Both the position numbers and the translations under genes were made by a program. 64,000 nucleotides of DNA from Glaciecola amylolytica. GTDB lineage: Bacteria > Bacteroidota > Bacteroidia > Flavobacteriales_D > Crocinitomicaceae. The notes beneath the pieces are model-generated. The model ran no database searches, was not told where the DNA came from, and worked only from the letters and a program-made list of their open reading frames with translations. This document shows positions 777-7,519 of this stretch, piece by piece. The stretch spans positions 2,852,001 to 2,916,000 of the forward strand of contig CP034120.1 in the NCBI GenBank assembly GCA_003856375.1, written 5' to 3'. Numbering within the stretch: position 1 is the stretch's first letter; the number at the start of each line of letters is the position of its first letter.

Positions 777-2969
777 TTATTCAATGATCACCGTGATCGG
801 AGGAATTGTTCCTTCATCGCTGGTTAATTGCACGAAGTAAACACCTGTTGCCAATCCTGTTGCATTGATTGCCGCTTCAGACTGCGCACCCGACAATTCC
901 GTTGCAAAGCAAGTTACACCTTGAGCATTCACCAATGTGATCACTGCATTGGACAAGTTTTTACTGAATGCAAGTTTGAATGTTCCATTGTTAGGAACCG
1001 GATAAGCTGTCAGTGTCGTTGTTTGCAACTCATCCAATCCTAAAGAACAATCTACCGATATCACACTTACGTTGATCGTATCAACAAGCGTACATCCGAT
1101 TGAATCAACAACCTGCAGAATGTATTGACCACTGTTTTGAGCCGGGTAAACATTCCAGTTGTTGTTGTCATTATTCCATGTGTAAGACTGGTAACCAAGT
1201 CCTGCTTCAAGCATAAACAGCTGACCGTTATCTGCACAAACTGTTGTATCGTTACCAAGGTTTACGGAATTGAATGTGTATGTAATACTGGAAGGACAAC
1301 CAACCATATCACTACCTGGCAGCACAGACAAAGAATCAGTCATGTCGATATATCCTAATGCTTCTTCGTCTCCACCAAATTGACCATCACTTTCATAATG
1401 GAAATACAAACGCTGATTCATCGGGTGAGTCACGAACGAAGCAAGGTCGCTCACATCCGAAAACTGTGTTACCGGAGTAACCATATCCGTTGTCAGGTTA
1501 TGAGCAACGATCTCATTGACATCATTACTCATGTAAAATACCGTGTAATCGATACCATCGTAACCTGCAACTCCCCAATCAGCCCAGTTTTCTGATCCGT
1601 TCAACTCTAATGTAAAGATTCCAAGATCTTCTACATCACCGAAACTAATATCGATCGCATAGACATGATTGTCATTTCCGTTGTAGATTACCAATTTACC
1701 GGAACCTGCAAACATACCACAATTGGTATTGTCAGTTCCCAACTGAAGGGTTTCCGACAATGGAATAATCTCAGTTGTAGGATTCAGATCTGCATCCAGT
1801 GCAACCAAGGCATTACACGTAAAGTCGCTGCTATTGTCGTTATCCGGCATAGTTTCGTCGTCCATGTTATAGAGCGAGTAAATTTTGCGCTCACGAAGAT
1901 CTGTGAAAAGACCGTCGCGAATTGGTAACGATACTCCCGGAGTAAGCAAGTCAAGGTCAAAACGAACCGTTGCGTCGTCACCTATCATATAAACCGTTGA
2001 ATCCGTAATAGCAATTCCTCCGCGGTCATCTCCGGCAATATTATCGATGTCTACTACATAAGCACTGTCATTCGTGATCGTGTCAATCATGTAGTAAGTG
2101 CCTGGTCTAAAACGACCATAGAAATAAGTTGTCGGAGAATGTGTTATTGCCGGAAAGGCATAGGAATCTGTCGTATCAAAAGCCTGTGAAAGGTTTGGCA
2201 TCGGGGAGAATACATTAGTAGGTCCGCCGGGAGTAAAGATCGGTTCGCTGTTCAGACAAACCAATTTGGATACATCTCCCGGAGCTGATAAAACGCGCAT
2301 AGTCTGTGTTTTGGTAGTAATACAGCCGATTCCGTCCGTGTAGGTATAAGTGATCGGATAGTTTCCTGCCACCAATCCCGCAGGATTGAAATTGTTTCCA
2401 CTGACATACGTTCCGGAAAATGTTCCTCCGGTCGGAATTCCAGTCAGTGCCTGCGGTCCGCTTGTTGAACAAGTTTTGTTATTGAACGTGAAATCTGCAA
2501 AGTCCACCGGCTCTCCGAATGCACAATAATTGTATATCAAGCGCACTTTTACCATATTGAAATCCACACATCCGGGAATCATATCTTCGTTTGCAACAAG
2601 TTTAATCACGGCATTGGTTCCCCAGGTACTGATGTCGGAAGCAGCGAATGTCTGGATATTGATATTGTGCTCGCAAGTCGGAACATTTCCACCGATATCT
2701 GAGAGAAACACCATTCCCGGTAAAATGGGCGTGTAATACTGACTTCCCCAGTCAAAGTAACCGATATAGGACACTTCAATAGTGGCATTACCATATCCTG
2801 ACGGAGCCAGTCCGGAGAAATTGAAGTACAGTGTATCTCCCGGATTGTAGAGTGTATCGTATTCATGTCCGCTGTCGGATAAACCAAACGCATCGTACGT
2901 TTGAGCATGATTTTTGTTTATCATGCCGATCAGAATAAATACGGTCAGGATAGTAATGATTTTTTTCAT
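777..2969 (-). CDS. Secreted T9SS type A cargo protein, 730 aa
   Basis: An N-terminal signal peptide (about residues 1-22, ending NHAQ) is followed by a beta-rich ectodomain. Residues ~160-230 look like a gliding/PKD-type module; residues ~270-560 repeat strand-turn patterns with aspartates (YVVDIDNIAGDDRGG, YAIDISFGDVEDLG) typical of a beta-propeller. Another short Ig-like module (NLGNDTTVCADNG) precedes the last ~75 residues, a type A sorting domain (YPVPNNGTFKLAF ... ATGVYFVQLTSDEG). The protein is therefore predicted to be exported and surface attached or released. No enzyme motif was seen. A TAnnTTTG promoter and a 16-bp palindrome lie just upstream; the gene is monocistronic with its own terminator. 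Confidence 0.85.
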   Translation of the reverse strand: MKKIITILTVFILIGMINKNHAQTYDAFGLSDSGHEYDTLYNPGDTLYFNFSGLAPSGYGNATIEVSYIGYFDWGSQYYTPILPGMVFLSDIGGNVPTCEHNINIQTFAASDISTWGTNAVIKLVANEDMIPGCVDFNMVKVRLIYNYCAFGEPVDFADFTFNNKTCSTSGPQALTGIPTGGTFSGTYVSGNNFNPAGLVAGNYPITYTYTDGIGCITTKTQTMRVLSAPGDVSKLVCLNSEPIFTPGGPTNVFSPMPNLSQAFDTTDSYAFPAITHSPTTYFYGRFRPGTYYMIDTITNDSAYVVDIDNIAGDDRGGIAITDSTVYMIGDDATVRFDLDLLTPGVSLPIRDGLFTDLRERKIYSLYNMDDETMPDNDNSSDFTCNALVALDADLNPTTEIIPLSETLQLGTDNTNCGMFAGSGKLVIYNGNDNHVYAIDISFGDVEDLGIFTLELNGSENWADWGVAGYDGIDYTVFYMSNDVNEIVAHNLTTDMVTPVTQFSDVSDLASFVTHPMNQRLYFHYESDGQFGGDEEALGYIDMTDSLSVLPGSDMVGCPSSITYTFNSVNLGNDTTVCADNGQLFMLEAGLGYQSYTWNNDNNNWNVYPAQNSGQYILQVVDSIGCTLVDTINVSVISVDCSLGLDELQTTTLTAYPVPNNGTFKLAFSKNLSNAVITLVNAQGVTCFATELSGAQSEAAINATGLATGVYFVQLTSDEGTIPPITVIIE

Positions 2970-3195: not shown

Positions 3196-4341
3196 TCACC
3201 AGCCTCGTTTCCATTTTTGAGCAATTCTCAGTGCCGTTTCCAGCATATAGGGCGACCAGTTTTCGGTTTGCCAAGCTGAATGCGCCAATGAAGAAGTGCT
3301 GAGCAACCGGGTTGCATCTTCATAATCGGCAGCATGTTCAAGTATGGAGGACAACTCAAGTTGCTGCTGATGCAATTCTAACGATTCGGGAACAGCTGCC
3401 TTCAGAGAAAGAGGTGCTTTGGGTAAAAAATCATTGTCGGGAAACAATTGATTTTGCGCATTGAAGGTATTTACAATTGCCTGCATGCGATCGAAATCCT
3501 GTTGAAACTGTAGTTGGCTTTCCACAGTATGAAGTGCAATTCCAAGTTGTTCCAACACCACAAATTTCAGATTTTTGCACAAAGGCAGCGCTTGTTTCAG
3601 CAATTCAAAAACAGCTTCCGGAACAGCATCGTCGTGCGTGTCTCTCCGGATTTTGCGCTCAGGCTGAATTCCGGAGGTTTCCCAACTTCCGCCGGAAATG
3701 TGGATTTCGCGTACACGATCAAGCGGATAAGCCTGAATCAACGTTTCAAAATCAAGTGAAAAATTCCGGAGCTGGCAATACAAATTGTGCAGGTCGAGAA
3801 TAATGAATCCGTTGACAGGTTCAATCAGCCGCGACAAAAATTCTCCGTGGTGCTGCACTTCTTCCAGCGAATAGGAAAATGCAAGATTTTCGAGCCCTAC
3901 AGGGCAAGAACACGCTTCCTGAATGCGCTGCAGGCGGTCGGTACCGATATTCAGCGTTTCAGTAGTATATGGAACAGAGATCGGTGCACCTTTGTGGAAA
4001 TCTTCACCGGTCATGAAACCAAAATGTTCCGTGACGTGGTCGAACGTGAAATTGGATGAAACTTTCCGCAAATGATCGAGCCATCGTTGTTGTTCAGCTG
4101 TCCATTTTCCTGAAAAAAGAGAGAAATATACGCCATGACCGATGAGCCTTCCTTCCTTGCCGAAAGCCTGAAGCAGTTCAACAAACCAGTCCGGAATATC
4201 GCGTACTTTGTACAAAGTATCAAAAGACCATTCGATTGCTTCAATTTTTTCTGCGGCAAACAAGGGCAATGCAGCTTGTAGAAGCTGATTGTCCAAATTA
4301 CAGGAAACTGCCGAACGGATTTTTACAGGTGTTTGATTCAT
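3196..4341 (-). CDS. DUF692-family MNIO enzyme (multinuclear non-heme iron oxidative enzyme), candidate RiPP-modifying enzyme
   Basis: Residues ~8-285 carry the DUF692 TIM-barrel pattern: HGVYFSLFS (H69), DHVTEHFGF (H106), ENLAF (E151), DLHNLYC (D183, H185), EIHISGG (H214), DTHDDAVP (D234, H236) and VLEQLG (E264). In this family (MbnB, TglH, ChrH) such His/Asp/Glu residues hold two or three irons that oxidise cysteines of ribosomal peptides. The start chosen is the ATG at 4341, which overlaps the stop of the precursor gene by 4 bases (ATGA), so the two are translationally coupled; an in-frame upstream ATG at 4362 is less likely. The protein is 381 aa, about 100 longer than the core; the helical tail (residues ~290-381) may replace the separate partner protein that other MNIO enzymes need (inference). 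Confidence 0.85.
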   Translation of the reverse strand: MNQTPVKIRSAVSCNLDNQLLQAALPLFAAEKIEAIEWSFDTLYKVRDIPDWFVELLQAFGKEGRLIGHGVYFSLFSGKWTAEQQRWLDHLRKVSSNFTFDHVTEHFGFMTGEDFHKGAPISVPYTTETLNIGTDRLQRIQEACSCPVGLENLAFSYSLEEVQHHGEFLSRLIEPVNGFIILDLHNLYCQLRNFSLDFETLIQAYPLDRVREIHISGGSWETSGIQPERKIRRDTHDDAVPEAVFELLKQALPLCKNLKFVVLEQLGIALHTVESQLQFQQDFDRMQAIVNTFNAQNQLFPDNDFLPKAPLSLKAAVPESLELHQQQLELSSILEHAADYEDATRLLSTSSLAHSAWQTENWSPYMLETALRIAQKWKRGW

Positions 4342-4571
4342 CCCATTCCACAAGCAGGACAAGAATCCCCAATCCCTTTATTCTTTTTTCCTTTGGATTC
4401 CGATTTTGTCGAAGTGTGCTCTTTTTCCTTAGATACTGAGTTTGTCGAAGTTTTCATTTTTGCCTCTTTCGTTTTACCTGAATTCGCATCATTTTGCTGG
4501 CAGGATGAGGACGAGGAAGTTACGGCAATACCAAATGTGATTGCCTGAAGCAAGGTGGAAGAAAGTTTCAT
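4338..4571 (-). CDS. Candidate MNIO-class RiPP precursor peptide, 77 aa, ending DSCPACGMG
   Basis: The peptide starts MKLSSTLLQAI like its neighbour at 4597-4788, which fixes the start at 4571 rather than at an earlier in-frame ATG (4610). It has a hydrophobic lipoprotein-like leader with a Cys at residue 24 (SSSSC), a Lys/Ser/Thr-rich linker of about 40 residues and a C-terminal CPACGMG. The two terminal cysteines are the likely sites of modification by the adjoining DUF692 enzyme, as in chryseobasin-type precursors of Flavobacteriia (family knowledge from memory, not checked). The stop codon overlaps the start of the enzyme gene. Confidence 0.75.
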   Translation of the reverse strand: MKLSSTLLQAITFGIAVTSSSSSCQQNDANSGKTKEAKMKTSTNSVSKEKEHTSTKSESKGKKNKGIGDSCPACGMG

Positions 4572-4596
4572 TGAAAGAAATATTACAAACCGGTTT

Positions 4597-4788
4597 TTAT
4601 CCCATTCCACAAGCCGGGCAACAATCCGGATTCGTTGTGTTTTGAGCAGGTTGACCTGATTGATTATTAGTAATTCGTTCTTTGTTTTTGCTGAAATCTT
4701 CCTTTTCGCAGGAAGTTACGGTAGCCGTTAGAGCCGTTACGGAAACACCCAAAGTAATGGCTTGTAGTAAAGATGATGACAGTTTCAT
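4597..4788 (-). CDS. Candidate MNIO-class RiPP precursor peptide, 63 aa, ending DCCPACGMG
   Basis: It is a paralog of the next gene: the leader begins MKLSSSLLQAITLG and has a lipobox-like TVTSC (Cys 27). A polar linker of about 27 residues follows and the end is CCPACGMG, with three cysteines. It is the first gene of the three-gene operon; 25 bases separate it from the second precursor. The shared leader and tail, with an unrelated linker between them, suggest that selection acts on the two ends: leader for recognition or export and tail for modification (inference). A TAAATTTG promoter box lies 42 bases upstream. Confidence 0.75.
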   Translation of the reverse strand: MKLSSSLLQAITLGVSVTALTATVTSCEKEDFSKNKERITNNQSGQPAQNTTNPDCCPACGMG

Positions 4789-4830: not shown

Positions 4831-4838
4831 CAAATTTA
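4831..4838 (-). promoter_or_regulatory. -7 promoter element (TAAATTTG) of the MNIO peptide operon
   Basis: On the minus strand TAAATTTG matches TAnnTTTG exactly, about 42 bases before the first precursor ATG. A -33 motif is not clear. Confidence 0.5.
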
Positions 4839-4954: not shown

Positions 4955-5473
4955 ATGAAAATAGCTTTGACAGGTGCTCATCGGGTTGGAAAAACAACAC
5001 TGGCTGAAAAACTTCACACATTCCTATCCGATTATATTTTGGTGCAGGAACCTTATGTGGAACTGGAAGAAAAAGGTTATTCATTCTCTGAAACACCGGA
5101 GCTGGAGGATTTTTCTGCTCAGCTGGAATATGCCATCGAACAAATCGGGATGGATGAACCCGATGTTATTTTCGACAGATGCCCGTTGGATTTGCTGGCC
5201 TACATTTTTGTGATCGGTGGCGCCAAAGTTTCTCAACATTTCTATACCAAAGTGATGGAAGCCATGACAGAAATTGATCTTTTGGTATTTGTGCCCATTG
5301 AAAATCCGGACAGAATCGGCTGTCCTGAGTCCGAATTTCCGCAACTCAGAAAACAAGTCAATGAATTGCTGGAAGAATGGATTAATGATTTTGACCTGGA
5401 AATCGTTCAAATCAACGGGGATTTATCGGAACGGGAAAATCAAATCCTCCGGACGATTTCAAATGCTTTGTGA
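4955..5473 (+). CDS. AAA-family P-loop ATPase/kinase-like protein, 172 aa
   Basis: A Walker A motif GAHRVGKTT is at residues 7-15. A possible Walker B-like strand (DVIFDRCPLDLL) lies near residue 70, and the R-rich LID region seen in nucleoside kinases is weak. The arrangement resembles the AAA_28/NadR-type P-loop proteins that bind ATP and phosphorylate small nucleotides or act in signalling. Substrate is not predictable. The gene is divergent from the RiPP operon with about 165 bases between them, and is followed by a copy of the dispersed TTAACCGTTAAA repeat. Confidence 0.7.
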   Translation: MKIALTGAHRVGKTTLAEKLHTFLSDYILVQEPYVELEEKGYSFSETPELEDFSAQLEYAIEQIGMDEPDVIFDRCPLDLLAYIFVIGGAKVSQHFYTKVMEAMTEIDLLVFVPIENPDRIGCPESEFPQLRKQVNELLEEWINDFDLEIVQINGDLSERENQILRTISNAL

Positions 5474-5572: not shown

Positions 5573-6655
5573 TTACTGGATCAATTTCCCTTCTTTGTTG
5601 AATTTATAGATTTTTCCATCTCCGTCCTTAACGGTAAACACTCCCGAACTGTAGGTGATTTTGGAATACTTTGTTTCTATAATTACTTTTCCGCTTTGAT
5701 CAATAACGCCTGCTCCACCGTCTCCTCCCATAAAGGCCTCCACGATTGCAAATCCGTCAGAGAATCCTTCCGAAGAGCCGGCATAATTTTTATCGTTGAT
5801 CAACTTTCCGGTTTTATCGATGTACTTGCATCTTGTGTAGTAAGATTCTTTGTAAAAAATCTGGGCAATCCCATCTTTAAAATCAGTTGCTCTCTCGTAA
5901 ACCGGTTCGATAATCACTTTACCGTTTACATCCATAAAACCGGTTTTGGAATCCTTCGAAAATCTCACAAGACCGCCGCTGAAAAAGCTGATAAATCCAT
6001 CTATCGGTTCAATAAGCTGCTTACCTGTTTTGTCTATTAGTGTATATTTTTCACCGATTGCTACGGATGCAAATCCTTCCGAAAAAAAGTCTGCCGAATC
6101 GTATTTGCAATCAATCACTTCTTTTCCTTCGCTATTCACAAAGCCCCATTTACCGTTGAGTTTCACAGCTGCCAACCCATTATTAAACGGGTAAGTTCTT
6201 TCGTATTTACATTCAACAACCAGCGTTCCTTTTGAATTGATAAATCCATACTTTTCTTTCATCTGTACTGAAGCGAACCCTCCGTAAAATGGCTGTGCAT
6301 TCTGGTAGATAAACTCACCCAATTTAGCGCCTGTTTTATCGATGAATCCAAACTTTCCTTTTTTCAGAGAAACGATAGCAAAACCTTCATGGAATTTATC
6401 TGCAAACGAATAAATCAATCCGATAACTTCATTTCCCTTCAAGTCGATAAAGCCCCATTTGTTGTTTTTGGAAACAGCAATAAGCCCTTCTCCATAACCT
6501 TCCCATTCTTCGTATTTGGTAGCAGGAATAATGACTTCCCCGTCTTGCTTAAACCCTATTTTCCCTGAGGTCTTGTCTTTAAATGCAGTGATTTTTTGTG
6601 CATTTGCCAGAATTGAGATTGAACAGATCCAACAAATTGTGATTAGTTTTTTCAT
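5573..6655 (-). CDS. Secreted WG-repeat protein, 360 aa
   Basis: A signal peptide (residues 1-20, ending NAQ) is followed by about nine WG/KWG-type repeats of 30-40 residues, for example KWGFIDLKGNEVI, KFGFIDKTGAKLG, KYGFINSKGTLVV, KWGFVNSEGKEVI and TGFMDVNGKVIIEP. WG repeats fold into beta-rich rods and are common in Bacteroidota surface or periplasmic proteins; no enzymatic role is known for them. There is no T9SS sorting domain, so it is expected to stay in the periplasm or be lipid-independent and secreted otherwise. It is convergent with the ATPase gene and monocistronic. Confidence 0.85.
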   Translation of the reverse strand: MKKLITICWICSISILANAQKITAFKDKTSGKIGFKQDGEVIIPATKYEEWEGYGEGLIAVSKNNKWGFIDLKGNEVIGLIYSFADKFHEGFAIVSLKKGKFGFIDKTGAKLGEFIYQNAQPFYGGFASVQMKEKYGFINSKGTLVVECKYERTYPFNNGLAAVKLNGKWGFVNSEGKEVIDCKYDSADFFSEGFASVAIGEKYTLIDKTGKQLIEPIDGFISFFSGGLVRFSKDSKTGFMDVNGKVIIEPVYERATDFKDGIAQIFYKESYYTRCKYIDKTGKLINDKNYAGSSEGFSDGFAIVEAFMGGDGGAGVIDQSGKVIIETKYSKITYSSGVFTVKDGDGKIYKFNKEGKLIQ

Positions 6656-6889
6656 GCAGCTTACTTTTTAAATTGAATTACTTGCTTTTACATTCATTTC
6701 GTAAACATTCACGAAGGAAACGCCCGTACAAGGACTTCACGATTATCCGGATTTTCAAATATTTAACGCGCTGAAAGTAGTTATATTAATCGACAAATTG
6801 CACTTTGACGTTAAGAGACCCGATGCGTCGAATTTCTTCCGATATTCAAATCGGATTAAACTTTTTTCGATCCTTTGCCTCTAAAAACC

Positions 6890-7519
6890 ATGAGCAGTCA
6901 AACAAACAACCATCCCGAATTCTGGGAGAAAAATTTCAGTGAGAAACAGGAAATGTGGGGCCTGGAACCGTCCAAATCTGCCCTGCTGACAAAAGATTTG
7001 TTTCTGGAACGATCCGTAAAAAATGTACTCATTCCCGGAATCGGTTACGGGCGGAATGCCCAACTCTTTCGGGAAAATGGAATGATCGTTACAGGAATTG
7101 AGATCTCAGAAACCGCTATTGAACTGCTCAAAAAGCATTACGGCCCGGAAATGACTGTTTATCATGGTTCTGTAACTGACATGCCTTTCGACAAACTCAA
7201 CTACGACGGAATTTTCTGTTATGCCTTGATTCATTTACTGGATGACAGCGAAAGGCAAAAACTGATTCAAGCCTGTTATAATCAACTGACGGAAAACGGC
7301 TGCATGGTTTTTACGGTTGTTTCGAAAGAAGCACCAACTTATGGAACAGGTAAATTGATCGGTAAAGACCGCTATGAGCAATTCGGTGGAGTAAATATAT
7401 TTTTTTACGATGAAGATTCTATTCAGGAAGAATTTGGTAAAGCCGGGTTGATTGAAATCAAAAAAGTCGAAGAAAACTACCCGTTTCACCTGATTATTTG
7501 TCAAAAACAGCGCGATTAA
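6890..7519 (+). CDS. Class I SAM-dependent methyltransferase, 209 aa
   Basis: The glycine-rich SAM-binding motif appears as NVLIPGIGYGRNAQLF (about residues 45-60), followed by the acidic end of strand 2 (VTGIEIS) and motif IV-like YDGIFCYALIHLL. The layout resembles the thiopurine methyltransferase/TehB-like branch of small-molecule methyltransferases. Substrate unknown. The ATG at 6890 is preferred over an in-frame TTG at 6875. It has its own hairpin downstream and is convergent with the S74 cargo gene. Confidence 0.85.
   Translation: MSSQTNNHPEFWEKNFSEKQEMWGLEPSKSALLTKDLFLERSVKNVLIPGIGYGRNAQLFRENGMIVTGIEISETAIELLKKHYGPEMTVYHGSVTDMPFDKLNYDGIFCYALIHLLDDSERQKLIQACYNQLTENGCMVFTVVSKEAPTYGTGKLIGKDRYEQFGGVNIFFYDEDSIQEEFGKAGLIEIKKVEENYPFHLIICQKQRD

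Follow-up and report, generated by a model that had tools for sequence, protein, structure and literature searches.

The closest described relatives of the operon reported here are DybA/DybH of Dyadobacter crusticola, ChsA/ChsH and HymA/HymH, in which a precursor with a lipobox cysteine and a C-terminal CPxCGxG motif is encoded directly upstream of an MNIO enzyme that carries a fused C-terminal domain and has no obvious partner protein (PMC12636315). According to this 2025 preprint, DybH, ChsH and HymH gave -4 Da products, DybH and its relatives act alone, the product contains a macrocycle and a hydantoin, and DybA is lipidated. Chryseobasin of Chryseobacterium, from ChrA and ChrH(I), has the CPACGMG core and a ChrH-subfamily enzyme in common with our locus, but ChrA has a secretion signal without a lipobox, the product is S-methylated (+10 Da), and the chr operons carry ChrI, ChrE and ChrP (PMC10214503). 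The lipidated bufferins and oxazolins (BufA, HvfA/NedA) are also MNIO-modified peptides that are exported or lipidated, whereas their core motifs and chemistry differ (EGKCG; 4, 6 or 12 Cys) and partner proteins are used. We analyzed a stretch of 64,000 nucleotides, hereafter the window (positions 2852001-2916000 of the single-contig 4.6 Mb genome G000:C1), in which two short precursor genes, A1 and A2, and an MNIO gene form one operon. The nearest named relatives of the enzyme in a similarity search are from Fluviicola (Crocinitomicaceae).

The locus is a precursor-enzyme operon of the DybA/DybH (DAG-RiPP) type, a kind already known from PMC12636315; among the papers searched there was no second account devoted to this branch, and the main text of that preprint, supplements aside, contains none of the terms Fluviicola, Saprospir-, surface, zinc or 'two precursor'. 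We regard it as probable, at about 0.83, that this three-gene Fluviicola operon makes two lipid-anchored DybA-type ribosomally synthesized and post-translationally modified peptides (RiPPs; 'DAG-RiPPs'), and by analogy with the published relatives the adjacent iron enzyme very probably closes the identical tails of A1 and A2 into a ring.

The original prediction had placed at positions 3196-4788 two short genes with near-identical starts (MKLSS-LLQAIT) and CPACGMG ends, directly followed by a DUF692/MNIO gene whose start overlaps the stop of the last precursor. These coordinates are exact, both the shared start and the common end are seen in the open reading frames (ORFs) A1 and A2, and the overlap is present as ATGA, the A2 stop (4340-4338) running into the enzyme ATG (4341-4339). 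All three genes are on the minus strand, with a gap of 25 base pairs (bp) between A1 and A2. Absent from that prediction is the lipobox cysteine found in both precursors, because of which both are likely lipoproteins.

Family assignment and linkage of peptide and enzyme

A search of the two peptides against MNIO-associated precursor families, as had been suggested, places both above the cut-off of 40 bits for NCBIfam NF050125, 'chryseobasin-related MNIO class RiPP peptide' (A2 54.0 and A1 52.3 bits), and no Pfam family matches either precursor. With the ChrA model they give 19.7 (A2) and 15.4 (A1) bits, and the curated cut-off of 50 is not reached. The best NCBIfam model of the enzyme is ChrH (NF050165), which aligns residues 15-378 of 381 with model positions 9-361 of 363 at 382.1 bits, under the cut-off of 600; Pfam PF05114 matches with 112 bits (cut-off 25), and the bufferin and oxazolin maturase models match weakly (93.2 and 76.6 bits). 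A ChrH/ChrA-type pair at locus L118, taken as positive control, clears both cut-offs (686.6 vs 600 and 117.2 vs 50). The earlier assignment to a chryseobasin-type MNIO operon is correct in the wide sense and does not extend to ChrA/ChrH proper, for which the scores are under the cut-offs.

Aligned enzymes of Dyadobacter, Hymenobacter, Chitinophaga and Spirosoma share 60-64% identity with that of the window, the Dyadobacter sequence in this alignment (60%) being that of locus L043 and not DybH. In a midpoint-rooted tree of 43 enzymes (44 rows before L010 was left out; 13 of 40 inner branches open) the window enzyme is placed among Fluviicola, within a 17-row set (97/92) that also holds enzymes of Crocinitomix and of the Saprospiraceae type, on the Dyadobacter/Chitinophaga/Spirosoma/Hymenobacter side, and the ChrH-type sequences L118 and L119 are split off at 100/100. 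By this tree the enzyme groups with the Dyadobacter/Chitinophaga enzymes and not with true ChrH. Nine predicted iron-ligand positions are invariant in 18 sequences: H69, H106, E151, D183, N186, H214, D234, H236 and E264. They were derived from the TglH iron ligands of PMC10880893, the last seven through an alignment with 8hci and the two histidines through one with 3bww; in our own reading H69 and H106 would correspond to TglH His71 and His107. The C-terminal region forms a conserved block in the alignment and is covered by the ChrH model to residue 378. The enzyme appears to carry the fused C-terminal domain of the ChrH subfamily, described as helical in PMC12636315, with no separate partner gene.

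Nine of 59 genomes, the window's own included, contain the DNA pattern for CPxxCGx(M/L/V)G followed by a stop; the same nine carry a ChrH-like enzyme (at least 373 bits) and all 16 pattern sites lie within ~0.5 kb of it, which answers the proposed co-occurrence check in favor of the pairing. Eight further genomes of the 59 have only distant MNIOs (at most 71.2 bits) and no such peptide. On a contig assigned to genome G043, a ChrH-like enzyme matches with 310.8 bits, the C-terminal domain being absent from the match, and the genome has no pattern match; at this locus (L010:123-1500) the enzyme ORF ends before the C-terminal domain, the overlapping next ORF resembles the domain by eye, and an upstream ORF ends in SETGACGMG, the motif minus its first cysteine. 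A draw of 395 genomes across the phylum gave five matches including the window's own, and the four others all have the enzyme within ±1.5 kb, as do 22 of the 22 matching genomes among 150 from the family of G120, one genome being common to both draws. The enzyme was found by tblastn in all 28 loci (L116-L143) of these two draws.

In the converse direction, each of 82 enzyme loci has at least one CPACGMG-type ORF upstream on the same strand (one in 64 loci, two in 16 and three in 2); the count covers close relatives only, since the relatives' loci are the top 80 of 115 ranked by their likeness to the enzyme of the window, with identity of at least 54%. One locus of the 83 given, L038, was dropped because the enzyme motif was not found there, and it has two CGMG precursors nonetheless. 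Across the 80 relatives' loci (1,235,658 bp), 92 ORFs of at least 30 amino acids end in CP.CG.G and none is on the strand opposite the enzyme, which puts the pairing beyond chance. Within the genus, the ChrH-like gene is accessory, as it is found in 9 of 14 genomes, two of the 14 being under 90% complete.

Two precursor classes and their signal peptides

The original prediction had noted two precursors with different linkers. Both are indeed present, and they amount to more than one peptide with varied linkers, being two old paralogue classes. The A1 class, with a CEK start and a short polar linker, occurs in 9/9 Fluviicola loci and the A2 class, with a lysine-rich linker, in 8/9, so that both are kept in 8/9; a Crocinitomix relative (L026) has one gene, which is A1-like. 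This distribution fits a single duplication before the sampled Fluviicola diverged. At locus L021 (7767-8010) A1 is the only precursor and abuts the enzyme at a TAAATG junction. Raw ratios of nonsynonymous to synonymous differences (pN/pS), pooled within each class (10 A1 including that of Crocinitomix, 8 A2) and read with pS of 0.58-0.76 near saturation, are 0.26 over the signal and motif of A1 and 0.29 over those of A2, and 0.51 (A1) and 0.39 (A2) for the linkers, values that show purifying selection on both paralogues as estimated from these alignments.

Mature A1 has 37 residues and a net charge of about -1, mature A2 54 residues and about +5. The locus differs from dybA, of which one copy appears in the published figure legend, in having two precursor classes, an extra cysteine beside the A1 motif, and a long, basic and partly duplicated A2 linker. 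The duplication in the A2 linker accounts for 12 residues of the surplus length of A2 over other A2 peptides in the alignment; the other seven aligned A2 peptides are at least 16 residues shorter than that of the window. At least one extra cysteine precedes the motif in 7/9 Fluviicola A1 peptides, Cys56 in that of the window. Operons with two or three precursors also occur elsewhere, at 18 of the 82 loci, Fluviicola included. At L063 (6981-7373) and L082 (7363-7704) a precursor without a lipobox stands beside lipobox precursors, the L063 variant ending in CPPCGRG, and on this ground one enzyme may feed both secreted and anchored products in these operons.

A lipobox-type cysteine, called by eye and with a loose regular expression, is present in 100 of 103 precursors, and 70 of the 103 have the exact CPACGMG end; the precursors of L063, L082 and L086 without a lipobox cysteine do not enter the lipobox counts, and two ORFs without a clear start (L065, L099) were dropped from the set. 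The signal peptides are more alike than those of two control lipoprotein families, with a mean identity over the first 14 residues of 58% (22 precursors, hand-picked from different taxa, two of them identical) vs 25% for 11 GldK signals (from the top 12 of 30 loci) and 22% for 18 BamD signals (from 30 loci, some outside the class). The precursor consensus is MK(L/I)SKxLLxA(I), with Lys2 in 96%, Leu8 in 91%, Leu7 in 87% and Ala10 in 85% of 119 distinct precursors; MKLSSSLLQAIT is such a signal-peptide segment. CPACGMG by itself is enough for modification in E. coli (PMC12636315), which does not account for this constraint. The signal may be adjusted to let modification come before export, or it may be a docking element. 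The precursor signals are also less hydrophobic, with a median best 12-residue mean of 2.15 (114 precursors) vs 2.51 for the 11 GldK and 2.55 for the 18 BamD signals, and values of 1.73 (A1) and 1.82 (A2) in the window vs at least 2.11 in the controls, although part of this gap may be selection because the rule for picking controls demands hydrophobic residues.

The residues after the lipobox cysteine were compared with the optimal surface-export signal of Capnocytophaga, C-X-K-(D/E)2, from which the consensus sequences of Bacteroides and Flavobacterium differ (PMC5080379). The A1 start CEKED fits this rule exactly, a rule that is that of Capnocytophaga and may not be that of Fluviicola. Lysine at +3 is found in 48 of the 100 lipobox precursors vs 13 of the 59 lipoproteins that served as controls (picked from the same loci by our own regular expression), and an acidic residue at +4/+5 in 72/100 vs 21/59. 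The excess persists in a set of 82 precursors thinned solely by identical first eight mature residues (+3 Lys 40/82 vs 13/59; acid at +4/+5 59/82 vs 21/59), in which the looser CxK(x)(D/E) is enriched (33/82 vs 7/59, P = 0.0003) and two or more acidic residues at +2 to +6 are not significantly so (40/82 vs 19/59, P = 0.058); the P values are inflated, as the precursors are related after such light thinning. The +3 Lys excess is modest, because a window shifted nine residues inside the precursors still gives Lys in 32/100, and acids there are likewise at 32/100. Among 21 hand-picked loci of different taxa, CxK(x)(D/E) occurs in 10 and +3 Lys in 12. These counts give no more than a lead, which is that A1 and numerous relatives may begin with a surface-export-like signal.

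The linkers of some relatives contain a further motif. Sixteen of the 114 distinct lipobox precursors contain an exact CxxxCxxxH, whereas 2000 within-linker shuffles gave 0.098 on average and never more than 2, and in 15 of the 16 (not L089) it extends, by eye, to H-x3-C-x3-C-x3-H with D/N/E before the last histidine. The carriers (L028, L031, L032, L033, L034, L056, L066, L089, L094, L096, L098, L117, L130, L131, L143) are from Saprospiraceae, Flavilitoribacter, and Bacteroidetes or Chitinophagales bacterium genomes, together with the family of G120; the cases are not independent, since these genomes are related, yet much of the remaining linker has diverged. The motif, which is unmentioned in the Results and Discussion of PMC12636315, suggests a putative metal site near the modified ring in Saprospiraceae-type relatives. 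A1 and A2 of the window lack it, and A2 has no extra linker cysteine.

Proposed pathway and competing explanations

The modification was called unknown in the original prediction, which is not wholly so, since the chemistry of relatives has been solved (PMC12636315). By analogy with them, the MNIO enzyme would act in the cytoplasm with iron and O2, without a partner protein, and remove four electrons from each CPACGMG tail, turning it into a sulfur-closed macrocycle and a hydantoin, with a shift of -4 Da and without methylation. The computed monoisotopic masses of the full-length precursors, 6588.14 for A1 and 7969.89 for A2, would thereby become 6584.11 and 7965.86 (-4.03 Da). Both precursors would be exported, the lipobox cysteine lipidated by Lgt, and cleavage by LspA would be followed by N-acylation, again as expected from the published relatives. 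The lipopeptides would sit in the outer membrane, A1 at least perhaps on the cell surface as its first mature residues suggest, a short tether carrying the modified ring at its free end, and A1 and A2 would be long-kept paralogues showing the same ring on tethers of differing charge.

Several observations weigh against this pathway or parts of it. The chemistry is carried over from relatives whose enzymes are ~60% identical, and all enzymes of the 59 genomes score below the curated ChrH cut-off. The extra cysteine of A1 lies directly before the motif (CCPACGMG). The A2 start CQQND does not fit C-X-K-(D/E)2, which makes surface display weak for A2, and the strict forms K-(D/E)2 or QA-(D/E)2 are not significantly enriched in the thinned precursors (12/82 vs 3/59, P = 0.097).

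A true chryseobasin type, in which the enzyme would also S-methylate with S-adenosylmethionine (SAM; +10 Da) and the peptides would be secreted instead of anchored, has in its favor the common CPACGMG motif and enzyme subfamily, with the 382-bit match to the ChrH model, and the mixture of methylated and unmethylated products given by the relative ArlAH (PMC12636315). We consider it very unlikely, as the enzyme is far under the ChrH cut-off and across the 100/100 split from the ChrH-type pair, the window precursors have a lipobox cysteine and ChrA has none (PMC12636315), and the four neighbouring genes scanned against NCBIfam and Pfam include no match to the DUF1772 of ChrI, nor were ChrI, ChrE or ChrP seen among them. 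That small CPACGMG-ending ORFs lie beside an unrelated enzyme by chance is exceedingly improbable in view of the linkage and strand counts and the purifying selection, with no unlinked peptide and no peptide-less enzyme among close relatives.

Other readings concern what the lipid-anchored peptides would do. Metal handling, in which the modified lipopeptides, like bufferins and oxazolins, would be envelope ligands for copper or some other metal, is compatible with the DybA-type pathway and seems to us possible, if tentative: methanobactin, bufferins and oxazolins are MNIO products that chelate copper (PMC12452194, PMC12636315), and both the Saprospiraceae-type linker motif, so far above its shuffle mean, and the extra A1 cysteines of Fluviicola point the same way. 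The window peptides themselves are without CxxxCxxxH, however, no metal transporter or sensor is among the four neighbours scanned, and the genes that recur over 80 loci are of other kinds (see below). Antagonism or signalling, in which an anchored antimicrobial or contact signal would act through the ring and the two tethers would be meant for different targets, would agree with the resemblance of the ring to the B ring with which nisin and related lantibiotics bind lipid II (PMC12636315) and with the accessory distribution of the gene. It is unlikely, as none of the four scanned neighbours looks like immunity or export and the core is near-invariant across many genera. Antagonistic peptides commonly diversify. 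A more elaborate surface-display system is also conceivable and rather doubtful: the signal peptide, through its specific sequence, would add a further element of recognition or timing, in that the enzyme could finish the tail during slow export, the export signal would flip the lipopeptide outward, the ring with linker thiols and imidazoles would capture a metal or ligand, and Fluviicola would run a slightly acidic, often thiol-bearing version and a basic one.

For the DybA-type pathway the window locus is a compact test bed, with one enzyme and two natural substrates that have identical cores and contrasting tethers, to which the genus relatives with and without the operon add. The conserved signal peptide, the export-like start and the H-x3-C-x3-C-x3-H linkers make the question of function directly testable.

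Locus layout and neighbouring genes

Coordinates are collected in the table. Two starts were revised from the ORFs as listed: A2 was given as 4338-4610 from an upstream GTG, and the homologous start, MKLSSTLLQAIT, yields 4338-4571; the enzyme was given as 3196-4362 from an upstream TTG, and its ATG is at 4341.

Table. Features of the operon and its surroundings in window coordinates
Feature	Position	Strand	Basis and remarks
Precursor A1, 63 amino acids	4597..4788	-	ORF; signal MKLSSSLLQAITLGVSVTALTATVTS, lipobox Cys27, CEKED start, C-terminal DCCPACGMG
A1 lipobox Cys27 codon (VTS-C), predicted site of lipidation	4708..4710	-	Sequence; E-K-E-D next
A1 CPACGMG, predicted macrocycle and hydantoin site	4600..4620	-	Sequence; chemistry by analogy (PMC12636315)
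Precursor A2, 77 amino acids	4338..4571	-	Signal MKLSSTLLQAITFGIAVTSSSSS, lipobox Cys24, lysine-rich linker, C-terminal DSCPACGMG
A2 lipobox Cys24 codon (SSS-C)	4500..4502	-	Sequence
A2 CPACGMG	4341..4361	-	Sequence
36-nucleotide tandem duplication in A2 linker	4383..4454	-	Copies 4383-4418 and 4419-4454, 75% identical
MNIO enzyme, 381 amino acids (MNQTPVK), DybH/ChsH-like	3196..4341	-	PF05114; ChrH model
Extra C-terminal enzyme domain (~residues 300-381), ChrH-subfamily hallmark	3199..3444	-	ChrH model and conserved block
TAAATTTG, candidate -7 box of operon promoter	4831..4838	-	50 bp before A1 start
Downstream type IX secretion system (T9SS) protein	777-2969		Domain scan only

Of the ten upstream regions compared (nine Fluviicola, one Crocinitomix), six have the 8-mer TAAATTTG at -50 to -52. 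TAnnTTTG is the Bacteroidota -7 consensus, and the pattern of the candidate box is by itself uninformative, with 44 occurrences in the window vs 60.9 expected by chance.

Clustering of ORFs of at least 80 amino acids over the 80 relatives' loci did not find a conserved partner beyond the enzyme; most precursors are shorter than this and were counted apart. The enzyme cluster is present at 79 of the 80 loci, followed by a TonB-receptor plug (16), a sigma factor (13) and a histidine kinase (11), and the recurring families also include T9SS and SusD proteins, each at no more than 16 loci. A divergent AAA_28 gene (4955-5473) was considered as part of the system and rejected because its distribution and distance do not track the operon: it is present in 4/9 genus genomes (G000, G012, G013, G006), lies ~10 kb from the operon in G013, is found in G006 without a ChrH-like enzyme, and is absent from G011, which has the operon. 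A SAM methyltransferase (6875-7519), conceivably an S-methylase, is encoded on the opposite strand, two genes off. A WG-repeat protein is encoded near the operon at 5573-6655 (PF14903, 8 stretches, 228 bits).

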